This document shows positions 8,775 through 19,042 of a stretch of DNA of 42,882 nucleotides, piece by piece. The position numbers and the translations under genes are program-made. Positions within the stretch are counted from its first letter, which is position 1; each line of letters opens with the position of its first letter. Source of the stretch: Candidatus Kaiserbacteria bacterium. GTDB taxonomy: Bacteria; Patescibacteriota; Minisyncoccia; Phycocordibacterales; Phycocordibacteraceae. The DNA is taken from assembly GCA_026396675.1 (NCBI GenBank), contig JAPLWI010000008.1, positions 1 through 42,882 of the forward strand, given 5' to 3'. The notes beneath the pieces are model-generated. The model saw nothing but the letters and a program-made list of their open reading frames with translations. It was not told where the DNA came from and ran no database searches.

Positions 8775-8800
8775 AGTTACTGCACCTGGTGCAGTAATTT
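8775..8800. repeat. 26-bp palindromic element, copy 1 (upstream of the AAA ATPase gene)
   Basis: AGTTACTGCACCTGGTGCAGTAATTT; 23/26 identical to 12442-12467. Confidence 0.85.
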
Positions 8801-8893
8801 CGCTGATTTCGAGATCGCGCAGTATCGGCATTCTTTTACACAGGCACAAACAAACCATTTCGACAGAGACATCGAAGCTTGCATGTTACAATT

Positions 8894-9895
8894 ATGAGCA
8901 TGAACCAAGATTTAATGGTGAGACTCTTTCGGTCAATTGAAGGGGATTCGGATGATGATCTTGTAAAAGTTGCCAAGAAAATCATCGAGAACGAGAAGGT
9001 CAAAGGACATGCGAAGTTGGCTGGGAGATTGAGAGGGATTTTGGATACAAATGTTGCAAGCCACTTGAGTTTTAAAAAGGAACTCAAAACGCTTTTACCT
9101 ATAGGGACATTTATTCCGACTGACAAGCGGCATAACATTCCTCTTGCTGTCGTTATTGATAACGATAAGCTTCGTCACGAAATGATTCTGCCAAAACCGG
9201 TGGAGGCCACTTTTCAGAGTATCGAAAAAGAATATGTGGCACGCGAAAGACTAGCTCACTTCGGTTTAAAACCACGACAAAAAATCCTTCTTTATGGTGC
9301 TCCTGGTTGCGGGAAAAGCATGGGAGCCGAGAGAATTGCATGGAACATTGGTCTCCCTTTTTTGAAGGTCCGGTTCGAAGCGATCGTTTCTTCATATCTC
9401 GGCGAATCAGCTAGTAATCTGAAAAGTTTATTTGAGTCAATCAAGCACTACCCCTGCGTTTTATTGTTGGATGAGTTTGATTTTATTGCGAAGGCACGTT
9501 CTTCAGGACAGGATGTTGGGGAAATGCATCGGATGGTAAATATTCTACTCAACTTGCTTGAAGACTATGATGCGCCTGGACTTCTCATTGCAACGACTAA
9601 CCTTGAAGGAACCCTCGACAAAGCACTATTCCGGAGATTTGACGACATTATGGAGATTCCTAAACCAGGCGAAGAAGAGATTGCACGCTTGTTAAAAAAT
9701 ACACTGTCTTCGATTAGTACGTCCTCGGAAATTGATTGGTGGGATCTCGCAAAAAAGATGGCGGGATTTTCCGCAGCGCTTGTCGTGAGAGTTGCGAACA
9801 ATGCAGCTCGAACTGCAGTAATCCAAAACAGCAAGGTGATAGGAGAGAACCATTTACTTAAAGCTCTGGAAGAAGTCATCGATTATAGTAAGTGA
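8894..9895 (+). CDS. ietA: AAA family ATPase, IetA-like (partner of S8 protease)
   Basis: Walker A LLYGAPGCGKSMGAERIA, Walker B VLLLDEFDFIA, sensor IATTN, LFRRFDD. Directly coupled to a subtilisin-like protease gene, the IetAS arrangement. Confidence 0.72.
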   Translation: MSMNQDLMVRLFRSIEGDSDDDLVKVAKKIIENEKVKGHAKLAGRLRGILDTNVASHLSFKKELKTLLPIGTFIPTDKRHNIPLAVVIDNDKLRHEMILPKPVEATFQSIEKEYVARERLAHFGLKPRQKILLYGAPGCGKSMGAERIAWNIGLPFLKVRFEAIVSSYLGESASNLKSLFESIKHYPCVLLLDEFDFIAKARSSGQDVGEMHRMVNILLNLLEDYDAPGLLIATTNLEGTLDKALFRRFDDIMEIPKPGEEEIARLLKNTLSSISTSSEIDWWDLAKKMAGFSAALVVRVANNAARTAVIQNSKVIGENHLLKALEEVIDYSK

Positions 9896-9900
9896 GTTCT

Positions 9901-12441
9901 ATGACTGGATTTCCTCATTTGGAGTTAGCAAAGAAAATCGACGGACTTCATAAACCGAAACAGGGTGGCCCAAGGGAAATCGATCCAACTACACAGGGAT
10001 ATCTCAACAATCGAGAAGGACACGGAGGCACTCTTTTGAGAAATATTGATAGCATTTCTCAGTACTGGAGAAATAATATTGTTGCTCGTACAGTCGCTGA
10101 CTTGCCTGCGTTGCCTAACCCAGCAGTAGTTCCTGTCTTCCTACGTGTAGATGCCAAAAGATTCGATATCGAATCGTTAAAGAGTTTTGGGATCGAAGTC
10201 ATAGCGGAAGAAGAGAACGGCTTTATCATCGGAGCCTCAAGCGATGATTTCAATTCCCTTCGCCAGAAGATAACAAAATTTATGGCCACGGAGGGCAAAT
10301 TCAAAGACAAGGCTTCTCAGTTGTGGCAAATAAACGAAGGGGAGCAATGGAGAGTTGATCAAATTCTTTCTGATGATCTCAAGGCTAAATGGGCTTCGAT
10401 AGAAGACGATGAGGAGTTAATAGTGGATGTTGGTATCGCGTGTTACGTGAGGACATCTGGACAGCCGGTGAAAACGAAGAAGGAGACGGCCGAGAAGTTC
10501 CGCGAAAGAATGGCATCATGGAAAGAGAGGAAAAACAACCAGGAACTTAAGAGGGATGAGATTGCTATAAAACGCCAAACAGATTTCGAGACTTTCGTCT
10601 CTGCATATCAAGGAGAGTTGGTTGGTAGTTACATAGATTTCGACGATAGCTTTTCCTGCAGAATCAAGATTTCAGGGAAGGGCCTCAAGGACATCGTGAT
10701 GAATTACCAATATGTGTTTGAGGTTGTAGAACATGATTCTCTTGTGCTGCAAGACGCTTCTGTGAGCGAAGGGACTGAAGTGGATCCTGAATTGATTGCT
10801 CCCACCGCGAATTCTCCGCGGGTTTGCGTTATCGATAGTGGAATACAAGAAGCACATCGACTTCTTGCGCCAGCCATCGACAACAGAAGATCCGCGTCAT
10901 TCATTCCGAGTGATGCGAGTACCGCAGATGTTGCTGCAAATGGTGGTCACGGTACAAAAGTCGCAGGTGCCGTGCTTTATCCGCAGCAGATACCCAGAGA
11001 GGGACAGTATTTATTACCATGTTTTATTGAAAATGCGCGAGTTTTGGCACGTTCGGGTACTCGTTCCGTATTGCCCGAGAATCTGTATCCTCCTAAGTTG
11101 ATGGAAGATATCGTAACTCATTTTGTCGGAACGAGAATTTTCAACATGTCTATCAATTCCTATAACGCGTGCAAGCTAATTCATATGTCACAGTGGGCTG
11201 CTGCGATCGATAAGTTGATGCACACCCACAACATCCTCTTCATTATCTCAACAGGAAATTTAAACAGTTCTACAAACAACACCCTTAAGCCGGGCATTAA
11301 AGAACACCTTGATGCGAATAGAAATTATCCGAATTTTCTTCTGGAGAATTCAAGCAGAATAGGTAATCCAGCCCAAAGCTGTTTTGCTCTAACGGTCGGT
11401 TCGGTGTGTCTTGAGAAATTCGATGATGCGTTAAAAGAATCTTTCGGTTCCAAAGATCAGCCGTCCTCATTTTCGCGCACGGGTCTCGGCTTGTGGGGAA
11501 TGATCAAGCCTGACGTTGTGGAGTATGGTGGAGACTTCGTAAAGGAGAAGGTTGCTAACCCTAATATTTCTCACGAACCCTCCGTCTCACCTGAACTTGT
11601 AAGATCGACATACGGAGGTGGCAGCGAAATCGGTAAGGACGATGTCGGGACTTCTTTCGCCGCTCCAAGGGTTTCGCACATTGCAGCAATTCTGCAGAAA
11701 ATTTATCCAGAGGAGTCCGCCAATTTGTATAGAACGCTGATAGTGCAGTCAGCGAGACTACCGGCTTCCATTTTTAGTAATCCAAGCGAAAATGACATAC
11801 GTCACTACGGATACGGAATACCCAGTTTGCAAAGAGCAACTCAAAATTCTGAATCCCGCATAACACTAATCGCATCAGGAGATTTATCTGCAAAACAAGC
11901 GAATGTTTACTCCATTAAGATACCTTCTCAAATGAGAAGGCCGGGAGAGGACTATGATATTCTCGTTGAAGTTACCCTCTCGTTTACTGCACGGCCCCGA
12001 CGAACTAGAAGAGGTACTCACTCGTATCTCTCTACGTGGCTGAGCTGGGAATCTTCAAAGTTAAATGAGGCATATGAGCAGTTTGTACCGCGTGTCCTTA
12101 AGGACATGGACGAACCAGAAACTGAAGTGGAGGATAGGGATACGATCAAATGGGTTATCCGAGAAAATAAGGATTGGAGTGAAATTGAAGGAATAAGAAG
12201 GCAAGACAGCACTTTGCAGAAATCCTGGTGCACTATCAAGTCTAACCGATTACCGGAGGCGTTGAGCTTAGCGGTCATAGGGCACAGTGGCTGGGAGGGC
12301 GATCTCAGCGAGAAGGCTCCATATTCCGTTGCAGTCAGTTTTGAGGCTCTCAGCGCAACAAATATAAACGTTTACGAAATGGTCAGGATTGAGAACGAAA
12401 TTGAACTCCCAGTCGAGGTAGAACAGGAAATTATTGCCTAA
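9901..12441 (+). CDS. ietS: Subtilisin-like (S8) serine protease, IetS-like
   Basis: Catalytic triad contexts RVCVIDSGI (Asp), GGHGTKVAG (His), GTSFAAPRVSHIAA (Ser). Start at 9892 (GTG) would overlap the upstream stop; ATG at 9901 is also possible. Confidence 0.75.
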   Translation: MTGFPHLELAKKIDGLHKPKQGGPREIDPTTQGYLNNREGHGGTLLRNIDSISQYWRNNIVARTVADLPALPNPAVVPVFLRVDAKRFDIESLKSFGIEVIAEEENGFIIGASSDDFNSLRQKITKFMATEGKFKDKASQLWQINEGEQWRVDQILSDDLKAKWASIEDDEELIVDVGIACYVRTSGQPVKTKKETAEKFRERMASWKERKNNQELKRDEIAIKRQTDFETFVSAYQGELVGSYIDFDDSFSCRIKISGKGLKDIVMNYQYVFEVVEHDSLVLQDASVSEGTEVDPELIAPTANSPRVCVIDSGIQEAHRLLAPAIDNRRSASFIPSDASTADVAANGGHGTKVAGAVLYPQQIPREGQYLLPCFIENARVLARSGTRSVLPENLYPPKLMEDIVTHFVGTRIFNMSINSYNACKLIHMSQWAAAIDKLMHTHNILFIISTGNLNSSTNNTLKPGIKEHLDANRNYPNFLLENSSRIGNPAQSCFALTVGSVCLEKFDDALKESFGSKDQPSSFSRTGLGLWGMIKPDVVEYGGDFVKEKVANPNISHEPSVSPELVRSTYGGGSEIGKDDVGTSFAAPRVSHIAAILQKIYPEESANLYRTLIVQSARLPASIFSNPSENDIRHYGYGIPSLQRATQNSESRITLIASGDLSAKQANVYSIKIPSQMRRPGEDYDILVEVTLSFTARPRRTRRGTHSYLSTWLSWESSKLNEAYEQFVPRVLKDMDEPETEVEDRDTIKWVIRENKDWSEIEGIRRQDSTLQKSWCTIKSNRLPEALSLAVIGHSGWEGDLSEKAPYSVAVSFEALSATNINVYEMVRIENEIELPVEVEQEIIA

Positions 12442-12467
12442 AGTTACTGCACTAGGTGCAGTAACTT
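12442..12467. repeat. 26-bp palindromic element, copy 2 (1 nt... immediately after the protease stop codon)
   Basis: AGTTACTGCACTAGGTGCAGTAACTT; arms AGTTACTGCAC/GTGCAGTAACT. Confidence 0.85.
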
Positions 12468-12507
12468 TGGGGATTTTGCTTCCATCGACCGGTGGAATAA
12501 TGGGCGC

Positions 12508-13162: not shown

Positions 13163-13624
13163 CTATTGAACCTTCTTGCCGTCAAACATTATGCTCTTCA
13201 CCGTACCTCCCTTACCGTCACTGTAATCGAGATCCACCTCCCATATGCTGCGGAGCGAAGCACCGAAGCTATTCTCGCTATCGACGTATCCGTTTATTGC
13301 CCAAACATCCTTCTGGTTAGAGAGTTCGTAAGCCTGCACATCGGTAAACTTGGCAGTCGACGGAGATTTCAGTATCTGTTCTATAACCGATTCGGCGTAT
13401 GCGATCGAAACATACTTTCTATCGCTGGTGGTCTGCTGGCCACTAGAGCTTGGCGACGGAGTGCTTGATGTTGGACTCAAGAAACTTCCGACCGCGCCCA
13501 GAATAACAAGGAACAAAAGTACCGTTGCAATCTTGTGCGCACGCATCCATTGAAGCACCTTATCTTTGTCGACTCTAAGTGGTTTGGAGCCACTACCCTC
13601 AGTCGAGAATTTAAAATCTTCCAT
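13163..13624 (-). CDS. Small membrane-anchored protein with C-terminal domain seen in mobile-element proteins
   Basis: TM helix KIATVLLFLVILGAVGSFL, then VIEQILKSPSTAKFTDVQAY...INGYVDSENSFGASLRSIWEVDL. Confidence 0.65.
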   Translation of the reverse strand: MEDFKFSTEGSGSKPLRVDKDKVLQWMRAHKIATVLLFLVILGAVGSFLSPTSSTPSPSSSGQQTTSDRKYVSIAYAESVIEQILKSPSTAKFTDVQAYELSNQKDVWAINGYVDSENSFGASLRSIWEVDLDYSDGKGGTVKSIMFDGKKVQ

Positions 13625-13652
13625 ATTCGTGATTGGACTTTATGCAAGTAAG

Positions 13653-13768
13653 CCCACGTAGGTACACGAGAACCCGCCACGTGGGTGAGGGCTTGCGCCC
13701 TCCACCGAGGTTTCCCCCGGCGGCCAATCACGACAGTCCCCCATGACGGGTTCTCGTGTCGTGATTGG
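13653..13768 (-). ncRNA. Candidate structured RNA (four abutting hairpins with loop-loop complementarity)
   Basis: In + coordinates: P1 13724-13735/13757-13768 (12 bp), P2 13703-13707/13718-13722, P3 13687-13692/13697-13702 (GCAA loop on minus strand), P4 13653-13661/13677-13685 (9 bp). Loop of P1 (13747-13756 CGGGTTCTCG) is perfectly complementary to loop of P4 (13667-13676 CGAGAACCCG). Confidence 0.6.
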
Positions 13769-13801
13769 ACTTTCTTTTCACCATGCCGTTGATTGCTCGG
13801 C

Positions 13802-13866
13802 GGTTTAGGCTACTTAGTCGCCCCGGAGGGCGACTCGTTCAGTTTAGCAGGCACTGGCCTAAAGCC
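13802..13866 (-). ncRNA. Upstream structured segment, possibly part of the same leader RNA
   Basis: GGTTTAGGC (13802-13810) / GCCTAAAGCC (13857-13866) enclosing AGTCGCCC-CGGA-GGGCGACT (13816-13835), which on the minus strand is an 8-bp stem with a C(UCCG)G tetraloop. Confidence 0.45.
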
Positions 13867-14236: not shown

Positions 14237-15892
14237 ATGACGAGTTATTTGAGAGAAAAGAAGAAGAGACTGCGCGGGAGTAAAGTTCCCTCATCTAGGG
14301 AAGGCGAGGTTCGTGCGTTGATTTATTGTCGCGTTTCTTCTGATCGTCAGGCATCGGAGGGTCATGGACTAGAGAGTCAGGAACAACGATGTATAAGTTT
14401 CGTTGAGCAGAGAGGATACACTCTTGAGAAGGTTTTTAAGGACGCGGCGTCTGGTGGCGGCGGTTACACATCACGACCGGGCCAGGTAGCTTTATTGCAA
14501 ACAATAGATAAGTTTCCCCACCGGAAGTTTGTTGTTATCGTTGATGACATTTCTAGGATAGCGCGTGATGTTCGTGGTCATTTTGAGTTGCGCGCCATCT
14601 TGCGCGCGCAAGACGTTCCCATCGAATCGCCAAATTACGAGTTTAATGACACCGACGAGGGGGAGGTGATGGAAACAGTCATGGCTTCGTTTAGTCAGTA
14701 CCATCGTAAAAGCAACAGGCGGCAAGTGATTCAAAAAATGAAAGCACGTCTCGAAAAAGGATACTGGACTTTCGGTAGCAAAAAGGGATACGACATGTTG
14801 AAGAATCCTACGCACGGAAAGTTAGCGGTTCCGAATAATGAGGGTCTCAAGATGCTGAAACCTGCCTTCGAAAGATTTGCAGACGGAACTTTGGTACGGA
14901 AAATAGACGTATGTCGTTTCCTAGTAGATTGTGGTTTTTGGAAGAAACAGAGACCAGACAAGTACATTGATAAGTTGGTAGGCTTTATGAAGGATCCCTT
15001 TTACTGTGGAGATATTGTGTATCCACAGTGGGAGATATCCAGAAGGGCGGGTCAGCACGAAGGAATAATTAGCATAGAGACATACGACCGTATGCAAGTA
15101 CGACTGCGCAAAGAAAACGCAGGAGCCCGGATCCGAGTCGACATATCTCCTGAGTTTCCGCTCCGTGGCCTGTTAATTTGTTCTGAGTGCGGGAGGCATC
15201 TAACTGGCGCATGGACGAAGGGTCATTCTAGGAAGTATGCCTACTATTATTGCCAGTACCGCGAGTGTCCCATTTATAGCAAAATGCTCAAGCGGGATTC
15301 TGTACAGGATGATTTCCATGCCTTGCTAGAAAGAAACTGTCTCAAGAAAGAGGTCGCGGATCTTGTCACCCTTGTGTTTGATCGTGTCTGGGATCAGGAG
15401 GTTCAGTCTCTGAAGCAGAGAGAAGCTGCTGATGAGAACGAAGCTCGCCAGATGAAAGAGAAAGTGTGCGGTCTCAGCAACCTTCTTCTCGGGGCAGGAA
15501 ATAAGTCCGAGGCGATACAGAGAGTGTTCGAGTCTCAATTGGAGGAAACTGCAGTGCGATTGCAGCAGTTGGAGCACCAGATCGCACACAGGAGAGACTT
15601 GGCGATTCCTTATCGAACTGCACTGGAGAAGGCCACAGGGATGCTGAGAAAGCCTGTATCCATTTGGGATTCCGTCGATACTTTGGAAAAACATCGGCTA
15701 TTTTTCTTCCTTTTCGAGACGAAACTCGCGTACGCAAAAGAAACCGGCTATCGAACTGCCGAATCGCTAAGTAAAACGCGGTTATTTGAGGAATTTGCCG
15801 TAACAAATCCTCTACGTGTGGAGGTGCGGGGAATCGAACCCCGGTCCGAGTCAATCTATGAAAGTGTTTCTACGACGCATAGTCAGCGTTAA
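14237..15892 (+). CDS. Large serine recombinase / resolvase family integrase
   Basis: Catalytic domain ALIYCRVSSDRQASEGHGLESQEQRC, ...VDDISRIARD...; recombinase domain; Zn ribbon LLICSECGRHLTGAW...YYYCQYREC; C-terminal coiled coil. Confidence 0.92.
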   Translation: MTSYLREKKKRLRGSKVPSSREGEVRALIYCRVSSDRQASEGHGLESQEQRCISFVEQRGYTLEKVFKDAASGGGGYTSRPGQVALLQTIDKFPHRKFVVIVDDISRIARDVRGHFELRAILRAQDVPIESPNYEFNDTDEGEVMETVMASFSQYHRKSNRRQVIQKMKARLEKGYWTFGSKKGYDMLKNPTHGKLAVPNNEGLKMLKPAFERFADGTLVRKIDVCRFLVDCGFWKKQRPDKYIDKLVGFMKDPFYCGDIVYPQWEISRRAGQHEGIISIETYDRMQVRLRKENAGARIRVDISPEFPLRGLLICSECGRHLTGAWTKGHSRKYAYYYCQYRECPIYSKMLKRDSVQDDFHALLERNCLKKEVADLVTLVFDRVWDQEVQSLKQREAADENEARQMKEKVCGLSNLLLGAGNKSEAIQRVFESQLEETAVRLQQLEHQIAHRRDLAIPYRTALEKATGMLRKPVSIWDSVDTLEKHRLFFFLFETKLAYAKETGYRTAESLSKTRLFEEFAVTNPLRVEVRGIEPRSESIYESVSTTHSQR

Positions 15893-16213
15893 GTTTAAGG
15901 CAGGATGCGAGGAACGCAGACGAAACCATTCCTGCCCGATCCCTTATTTAATCCCGATGCGTGGGAACGCGAGGGACGATTCTACAGAAAATTCCACCCA
16001 GACCCTCGGCTGTAGAAACCCGAAAGAATGAATGTCGCTAAGCGAGCTTACGCTGCGTAGGCGAACGCGAAGTCACGCATACCGAAGTACGGCGACTTCA
16101 CGCTTGCAAGAGTGTTCTTGGCAAGTTTGGTTCCCGACAGTTTTAAGTGATGAACGGGAGTGCACTGCGTCGCACATCTTTCAAAGAACAGACCGTCAAA
16201 GCCGGTCACCCCC
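15819..16213 (-). ncRNA. ssrA: tmRNA
   Basis: Minus strand 5' GGGGGTGACCGGCTTTGACGG... and 3' ...GGACCGGGGTTCGATTCCCCGCACCTCCA; acceptor pairing GGGGGUG/CACCUCC; smpB upstream. Candidate tag frame ends ...DFAFAYAA-stop. Confidence 0.92.
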
Positions 16214-17221: not shown

Positions 17222-19042
17222 TTAGCGGCGCGACTTTGCGCGATCGTTTTGTGAGAGGAATTGTTTACGCAGGCGCACCGACTTCGGTGTGATTTCGAGA
17301 TATTCGTCATCCGCCATTATTTCCATTCCACGCTCAATCGTGAGGTCAAATATCGGAACGAGCGTTAGTGCCTCATCCATACCCGAAGAGCGGACATTTG
17401 ATTGATTCTTCCCTTTTGTCGGATTCACCTGCATCTCTTCGCCCTTTGATGTGTTACCGACGACCATACCTTCATAAACTTCAGTTGCCGGTTTTATATA
17501 AAGCTGACCGCGATCCTGTAAACTCCAAAGTGAGTAACCGAGTGCCTTTCCGTCTGCCATAGAAATCATTGAACCCACAATTCGGCGACGGATCTCGCCA
17601 GCGTATGGTTTGAAACCGATAACGCGCGAAGAGAGAATTCCTTCGCCTTTCGTATCAATAATGAACATGTTTTTGTACCCGAGCAGTCCTCGTGTCGGTC
17701 CAGTGAAAGTGAGACGCACCGTATTGCTGTGTTGTGTGAGATTCTGGAGTACGAACGCGCGCTGACCTAATTTCTCAATGACAGCACCTTGGAATTCTGA
17801 CGGGACATCAATCGTAACTTCCTCGAATGGTTCGCTACGCTCACCATCATTTTCCTGGTGGAAAATGACCTGCGGCTGCGAAACCTGCATCTCGTATCCT
17901 TCGCGGCGCATATTTTCAAGTAACACTGCGATGTGAAGCTCTCCGCGACCGGACACATGAAAAGAGTCAGTGCCTGAAAAGTCCACCTTAAGGCCAACAT
18001 TCACCTCAAGTTCTTTTTCGAGTCGTTCGCGGATCTGACGGCTTGTAACATACTTCCCTTCCCGCCCTGCAAATGGCGAATTATTGATGAGGAAGTTGAG
18101 TGCGATTGTCGGTTCATCCACCGCGATAGCCGGCAACGACGCCGTGGACTCGTCCGTTGTCACCGTCTCGCCGATATAAATGTCTGGAAGACCGGCGATG
18201 AGTACAATATCACCCGCCGACGCTTCATCCGCTTCAACACGATCGAGTCCTTTAAAGGTGAATACTTTCGTAATGCGACCGACGCGCGTTTCTACCTGGC
18301 CGGTCAGGCCATTCGGCTTCTTGATAAAAACCGTTTGATTCGGGCGAACTGTTCCCGCATAAATACGTCCGACTGCAAGTCGTCCCATAAAATTATCGTA
18401 GGCAAGATTAAACGGCTGAAGCATCAGTGGAGCATTTGGATCAGCGTTAACATTTGCCGCTGGAACTTTTTCAAGAACCATATCCAAGAGCGGCGAGAGG
18501 TCGCCGTTGGGCAAATCGCTCGCCATAAGATCATCTGGGTTTAGTGCCGCGCGTCCATCGCGCCCGATTGCGTAGACAACCGGAAAGTCAGATTGTTCAT
18601 CCGTTGCGCCAAGTTCTAGGAAAAGCTCTAGCACCTGCTCTTCGGCGCGCGCCGGATCAGCTGCTGGCTTATCAATCTTATTGAGCACGACGATGGGTTT
18701 GAGACCAAGTTCTAATGATTTCTTCAAAACAAAGCGCGTTTGCGGCATAGGTCCTTCTGCCGCGTCAACGATAAGAAGTACTGAATCAATAGAGCGCAAA
18801 ACACGTTCAACTTCACTGCCAAAATCCGCGTGTCCGGGCGTATCAACGATATTTATTTTCGTGCCTTTATATTCAACCGCTGCGTTTTTCGCATAAATGG
18901 TGATACCGCGCTCGCGTTCAAGCACGTTAGTGTCCATCGTCGTACCTTCTACCGCCGCGTGCGTCTGTTTTAAGATAGCGTCAGTCAACGCCGTCTTCCC
19001 GTGGTCCACGTGTGCGATGATAGCGATGTTACGAATTTCCAT
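17222..19042 (-). CDS. typA: Ribosome-associated GTPase TypA/BipA
   Basis: [45 protein letters not shown]. Confidence 0.96.

Follow-up and report, generated by a model that had tools for sequence, protein, structure and literature searches.

The window, as we call the whole 42,882-nt stretch of DNA analyzed here, carries one copy of LOOT RNA (RF03000) on its minus strand. The best explanation of this copy is that it is the 5′ leader of the gene at 13163–13624 (minus) and acts in cis as a translational switch; we put the probability of this reading at roughly 0.6.

Identity and Distribution of LOOT RNA

In an Rfam covariance-model search, positions 13811–13687 (minus) scored 77.7 bits as LOOT RNA, for which the cut-off is 46.4. 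The match spanned the whole RF03000 model (positions 1–121) and lay 31 bits above the gathering cut-off. The conserved internal loop of hairpin 1 and the GAAA- and GNRA-capped hairpins 3 and 4 were all found in the alignments of the window sequence. The window RNA is a copy of LOOT. The first-pass annotation, which was made by eye, had proposed it as a candidate undescribed RNA; the full-length match above the cut-off rules this out.

LOOT is a bacterial RNA that has already been catalogued and has hitherto been an orphan class. Rfam types the family as "Gene; sRNA". It is mentioned in passing for 28 cross-covariations (PMC7657543) and for two added pairs (PMC11701678), and it appears in a figure legend (PMC7779021). 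No mention of LOOT was found in the literature beyond Rfam and R-scape method papers, the founding LOOT paper lying outside the search.

The genome of the window contained a single LOOT copy. Of the genomes sampled, 83 of 380 from the phylum and 124 of 297 from the order had LOOT, in up to seven copies each. A scan of 84,980 species genomes with a LOOT sequence pattern gave 90 matches; the records with a lineage in their title belonged to candidate-phyla (Patescibacteria) lineages, with the exception of one "Clostridiaceae" MAG. More than 200 LOOT copies were compared overall: 125 oriented copies at first, to which a second and a third set were added, the third (n = 66) being chosen by sequence pattern.

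Three IMG/VR viral contigs (L289, L290, and L291), putatively of phage nature, also carried RNAs with the LOOT pattern. Locus L045 (G112:C3) contained two LOOT copies in the same direction about 240 nt apart (model matches at 17612–17748 and 17988–18107), with a small ORF of one family, MPK(F/Y)KID.WFDQ, behind each. In contigs C25, C40, and C88 of genome G096, LOOT was located at the contig start or end, and the copies in C25 and C40 had identical arms, which suggests that near-identical repeated copies broke the assembly.

Secondary Structure of the Window Copy

All features described below are on the minus strand. Hairpin 1 (H1; 13780–13811, model positions 1–33 of the RF03000 alignment) holds the CCUAAAC/GGCAUGG internal loop, whose columns were conserved among 80 copies. 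This hairpin was overlooked in the first-pass annotation, and the RNA begins about 43 nt further 5′ than was noted there. Stems P1, P2, and P3 of that annotation correspond to LOOT hairpins 2, 3, and 4, and its P4 and kissing strand lie beyond the Rfam model. Hairpin 2 is formed by the 12-bp stem CCAATCACGACA/TGTCGTGATTGG, present at 13768–13757/13735–13724 as described earlier. Its 5′ arm (A, 13757–13768) is hypervariable among LOOT copies and always complementary to the 3′ arm (A′, 13724–13735), which has two possible partners, A or the repeat A2 described below. Hairpin 3 with its GAAA loop (P2; 13703–13723) and hairpin 4, GAGGGC-GCAA-GCCCTC with a GCAA tetraloop of the GNRA type (P3; 13687–13702), were likewise found in the places given for them and agree with the Rfam alignment; the model ends at the 3′ end of hairpin 4.

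The 5′ side of the hairpin 2 loop (B, CGAGAACCCGUCAUG, 13742–13756, with a conserved 9-bp core at 13750–13742) pairs with a downstream strand outside the Rfam model (B″, CGUGGCGGGUUCUCGUGU, 13664–13681, core 13681–13673), as indicated by a partner search and by covariation. B″ is situated in the loop of an optional hairpin 5 (the former P4; 13653–13685), which was seen in the sequence and as an excess of stems in other copies; its stem CCCACGTGG/CTACGTGGG is present and has 9 bp including one G·U. The perfect 10-nt complement between the two loops, CGAGAACCCG/CGGGTTCTCG, was confirmed, and the exact match actually extends to 13 nt (ACACGAGAACCCG/CGGGTTCTCGTGT). When the 34-nt extension was shuffled 20,000 times by dinucleotides, 15 shuffles gave a complement of at least 10 nt. 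The fold was more stable than its shuffled controls, with a z-score of −7.3 and none of 200 shuffles equally stable.

Further downstream, a 15-nt direct repeat (A2, AAAGTCCAATCACGA, 13627–13641) reproduces 10 nt of arm A together with its 5′ flank and ends 2 nt short of the ATG with which the next gene (13163–13624) begins. This repeat of the 5′ side of P1 had also been overlooked. Just upstream of LOOT, a GC-rich hairpin, AGTCGCCC-TCCG-GGGCGACT, was found at 13816–13835; a terminator-like call was made there on the plus strand.

Contact Between the Hairpin 2 Loop and the Downstream Strand

A B″ partner for the hairpin 2 loop is a property of nearly all LOOT copies. A helix score of 18 was reached by 105 of 108 copies; swapping the loops and downstream regions of divergent copies gave an expectation of 20.7. 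The second set gave 43 of 43 (12.5 expected) and the third 63 of 66 (27.5 expected, the swap expectation being high because conserved sequences pair too). In an alignment of 80 sequences, 97.8% of the cells of the 9-bp core were paired, as compared to 76.3% after shuffling. All nine pairs varied on both sides, with 164 two-sided cells against 44.9 in shuffled alignments, and the covariation score of 0.706 fell to 0.266 on shuffling and to 0.164 or less on sliding. Beyond the core, weaker pairing continued into a UUUnUGU tract (80.7% paired; covariation 0.373 vs. 0.227). In the window, the tract after B″ is UUCUCGUGU instead of UUUnUGU, and the loop side compensates perfectly. The cells of the B:B″ contact included 168 G·U and only 5 A·C, so it is RNA of the LOOT strand that folds, in agreement with the strand proposed in the first-pass annotation.

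B:B″ is almost certainly a conserved 3′ extension of LOOT past the Rfam model, judging from pairing and covariation. Compared with Rfam 15 and the literature searched, the founding LOOT paper excepted, three features are new: the pseudoknot, its B″ strand, and the repeat at the start site. The P4-type stem around B″ was in excess (52 observed vs. 11.3 expected among 154 copies) and clear in about a third of the copies; this modest excess makes it an optional feature rather than a family-wide one. The earlier picture, with a kissing loop locking four hairpins, was correct in the loop-to-downstream contact, which is real and conserved, and too static in the rest: P4 is optional, the contact of the window can grow until it competes with the P1 stem, and the 3′ arm of that stem has a second possible partner at the start codon.

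The U-rich tract that follows B″ in most copies (columns 181–187), directly behind a GC-rich covarying helix, could also point to a transcription attenuator. B:B″ would then be the terminator helix, with its 5′ half in the hairpin 2 loop and UUUnUGU behind it; closed hairpin 2 would prevent termination, possibly acting jointly with a translational switch. We regard this as unlikely. The tract, conserved as UUUUUGU or UUUGUGU, contains a G that a terminator does not require. Covariation of the tract with the A-rich side of the loop (columns 76:184: A-U, C-G, G-U, and U-G) makes it at least partly a pairing strand. No U run follows the helix in the window, where UUCUCGUGU stands after B″ and the loop compensates perfectly; terminator prediction gave nothing on the LOOT strand of the window. 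An attenuator would also leave A2 unexplained.

Leader Position and Led Genes

In 105 of 111 distinct copies, LOOT and the gene after it shared a strand. Genes upstream were distributed as at random (48 on the same strand and 63 on the opposite one). The start codon of the led gene was located at a median of 59 nt past the LOOT model, and the window copy likewise occupies a gene's 5′ leader. From this arrangement, LOOT is very probably a cis-acting 5′ leader, a function that had been listed among the possible ones at first; no sign was found of a ribozyme, which had been listed beside it, and the downstream genes mostly encode membrane proteins. The leader position contradicts the Rfam type "Gene; sRNA", which is a curator's assignment and not a structural criterion for an independent trans-acting gene.

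The led genes are diverse and include those for zinc-ribbon membrane proteins, nucleases, methylases, restriction enzymes, and proteases. A membrane segment was predicted in 56 of 70 LOOT-led genes and in 257 of 908 other genes (Fisher 1e−17); the comparison used a simple hydropathy rule on unannotated ORFs, with background genes of at least 130 aa from the same loci. The first membrane segment was N-terminal in 55 of the 56 LOOT-led membrane proteins. The downstream genes have no common pathway and therefore suggest no ligand. Shine-Dalgarno-like sites preceded 4 of 40 LOOT-led genes with A2, 17 of 107 without it, and about 19% of the background genes.

No match to a sigma-70-type promoter was found in the LOOT region of the window. 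Upstream of other copies, TATAAT-like hexamers were loosely concentrated about 20–32 nt before LOOT, too weakly for placing the start site.

The gene led by LOOT in the window encodes a protein of 153 aa, modeled as an N-terminal membrane helix followed by a small alpha/beta domain. No Pfam family was found for it, NCBIfam gave insignificant matches only, and a structure search returned only weak NTF2-like matches (E of 0.03 or worse). Homologues sharing the motif SPSTAxF...YVDSENSFGA...FDG were present in five other genomes; four of them are intact on the 5′ side, and LOOT lay directly upstream of all four.

Start-Site Repeat

An exact repeat of A of at least 9 nt (A2) was found downstream of 26 of 107 copies, 0.3 being expected. 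It recurred in the second, independent set (16 of 43; 0.33 expected), persisted after thinning to distinct arms (23 of 92; 0.08 expected), and was less frequent in the third, pattern-selected set (5 of 66; 0.08 expected), indicating a share of A2 copies that depends on lineage or selection. Apart from the third set, the count was 41 of 154 copies, the window included; roughly a fifth to a quarter of LOOT copies carry A2. An ATG followed A2 after 0–12 nt in 39 of these 41 cases. When about 6 kb was searched on each side of LOOT, copies of A were concentrated 0–120 nt downstream (41 vs. 0.2 expected), and the other bins were near expectation, with the largest deviation at 120–1500 nt (6 vs. 2.3).

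In genome G358, five of the seven LOOT copies each matched solely their own start. A relative of the window genome from the same genus (G603) had a wholly different arm, CATAGGACAT, again repeated before its own ATG. Among the LOOT-led homologues of the 153-aa protein, arm A was CCGCTAAAGT in three, each with A2 immediately before the ATG, as compared to CCAATCACGA in the window; the fourth was without A2. A, A′, and A2 were thus replaced together with their mutual relation kept. Since the 5′ arm is repeated exactly before the start codon, A′ can pair with either A or A2. Mutually exclusive helices, one of them masking the start, can be drawn from the sequence in 41 of 154 copies, that of the window among them. 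At wobble A:A′ positions where A2 differs from A, a Watson–Crick A2–A′ pair resulted in five of seven; these cases are few and no more than suggestive.

An A′ that is antisense to a start region where A2 exists would also fit a trans-acting small RNA with A′ as its antisense seed against start regions, as would the Rfam type. We consider this improbable: a same-strand gene follows in 105 of 111 copies at a narrow distance, copies of A occur 0–120 nt downstream of their own LOOT and at chance level elsewhere in the flanks, and the sole third copy of TCCAATCACGA in the genome of the window is situated inside the coding sequence of ribosomal protein bL25. A constitutive leader, whose stable fold would not switch and would recruit ribosomes or stabilize the mRNA where a membrane-protein gene has a weak Shine-Dalgarno site, seems equally doubtful to us. 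It is consistent with the scarcity of Shine-Dalgarno-like sites and with the strong enrichment of N-terminal membrane anchors in LOOT-led genes; it explains neither the exact copying of a hypervariable arm at the start codon nor the joint change of A, A′, and A2.

Putative Genomic Island Around the Window Copy

A pair of genes for an AAA ATPase and a subtilase (8879–12441, plus strand) matched IetA (E 2.5e−74) and IetS (E 2.9e−59) of the IetAS anti-phage defense system; the LOOT leader is about 1.2 kb away. The pair is flanked by 35-nt direct repeats of 83% identity (8775–8809 and 12442–12476) with a palindromic hairpin (TTACTGCAC...GTGCAGTAA). A large serine recombinase was encoded on the plus strand in the region 14237–16213; it and the tmRNA gene (15816–16213, minus) overlap at their 3′ ends, and SmpB is adjacent. 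This arrangement suggests tmRNA as the integration site of an island, for which no att repeats were found.

The recombinase that LOOT adjoins in the window, the multiple copies of LOOT in some genomes, and the patchy distribution of LOOT are what a DNA-level element might show, that is, a folded single-stranded recombination site or a mobile repeat with A and A2 as insertion duplications. The probability of this is negligible in our estimation. G·U pairs are tolerated on one strand only (168 vs. 5) and the orientation towards the gene is fixed; moreover, A is internal, with hairpin 1 outside the repeat, and hence is not a target-site duplication.

Proposed Switch

We infer both the switching itself and its direction from the two mutually exclusive partners that A′ would have: A in hairpin 2 or A2 in the start region. 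In the ON state, hairpin 2 would be closed by A:A′, A2 would be free, and the gene would be translated. In the OFF state, extensive B:B″ pairing would open hairpin 2 and A′ would move onto A2; this helix would cover nucleotides from about −12 to −3 and block initiation. The balance between the states would be set by a signal sensed by the conserved part of the RNA (the H1 internal loop, H3, and H4), and the conserved H1 internal loop is a candidate sensor of a ligand or signal. For the copies that carry A2, such a start-site switch is reasonably probable.

The B:B″ pairing of the window can be extended to 19 bp, which then competes with the P1 stem. Hairpin 2 is expected to open under full B:B″ pairing, because 19 bp are implausible within the 21-nt loop of a closed 12-bp hairpin; the shorter core contact might be compatible with closed hairpin 2. 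Energies calculated for the window leader as separate nested folds were −82.6 kcal/mol with hairpin 2 closed, −91.1 with the long B:B″ helix, and −78.8 with A′:A2. Among 151 copies, the closed state was favored over the loop-paired one by a median of 5.2 kcal/mol, and 47% lay within 5 kcal/mol. The order was reversed in the window, the loop-paired state being below the closed one by 10 kcal/mol.

Exact A2 was found in a minority of copies (41 of 154, and 5 of 66 in the third set), so start-site masking is not the mechanism of every LOOT, or there is another output elsewhere. Copies without A2 may have such an output, e.g., termination at the U tract, which is present in most copies and absent from the window. 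Tentatively, and at somewhat less than even odds, LOOT could be a cis switch widespread in Patescibacteria, with a hypervariable stem matched to the start of each exported or membrane gene and one conserved sensor for unrelated genes, probably responding to a general signal.

Little is known about gene regulation in the candidate phyla radiation. If the proposal is true, it places LOOT in 5′ leaders, extends its structure, and offers a mechanism that can be tested directly, and membrane and exported accessory genes of the radiation would have a common post-transcriptional control. The combination of a conserved sensor with an exchangeable gene-matched arm would also be a useful design principle.

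Comparison with Known Systems

The window copy shares with the RF03000 model of LOOT the four hairpins, the CCUAAAC/GGCAUGG internal loop, and the GAAA and GNRA tetraloops. In contrast, the model reaches no further than hairpin 4, carries the type sRNA, and includes neither the B″ strand nor the pseudoknot or the start-site repeat.

Pseudoknot-controlled attenuators resemble LOOT in the helix between a loop and a downstream strand, followed by a U tract in most copies. They differ in that the window copy has no such tract and in that the tract of LOOT is itself paired and covarying.

With translational riboswitches and leader switches (anti-anti-SD/anti-SD/SD), LOOT has in common the order A–A′–A2 before the start codon and mutually exclusive pairing. 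Unlike them, it has hypervariable middle arms matched to the start of each gene, leads diverse genes, and forms an extra pseudoknot between a loop and a downstream strand.
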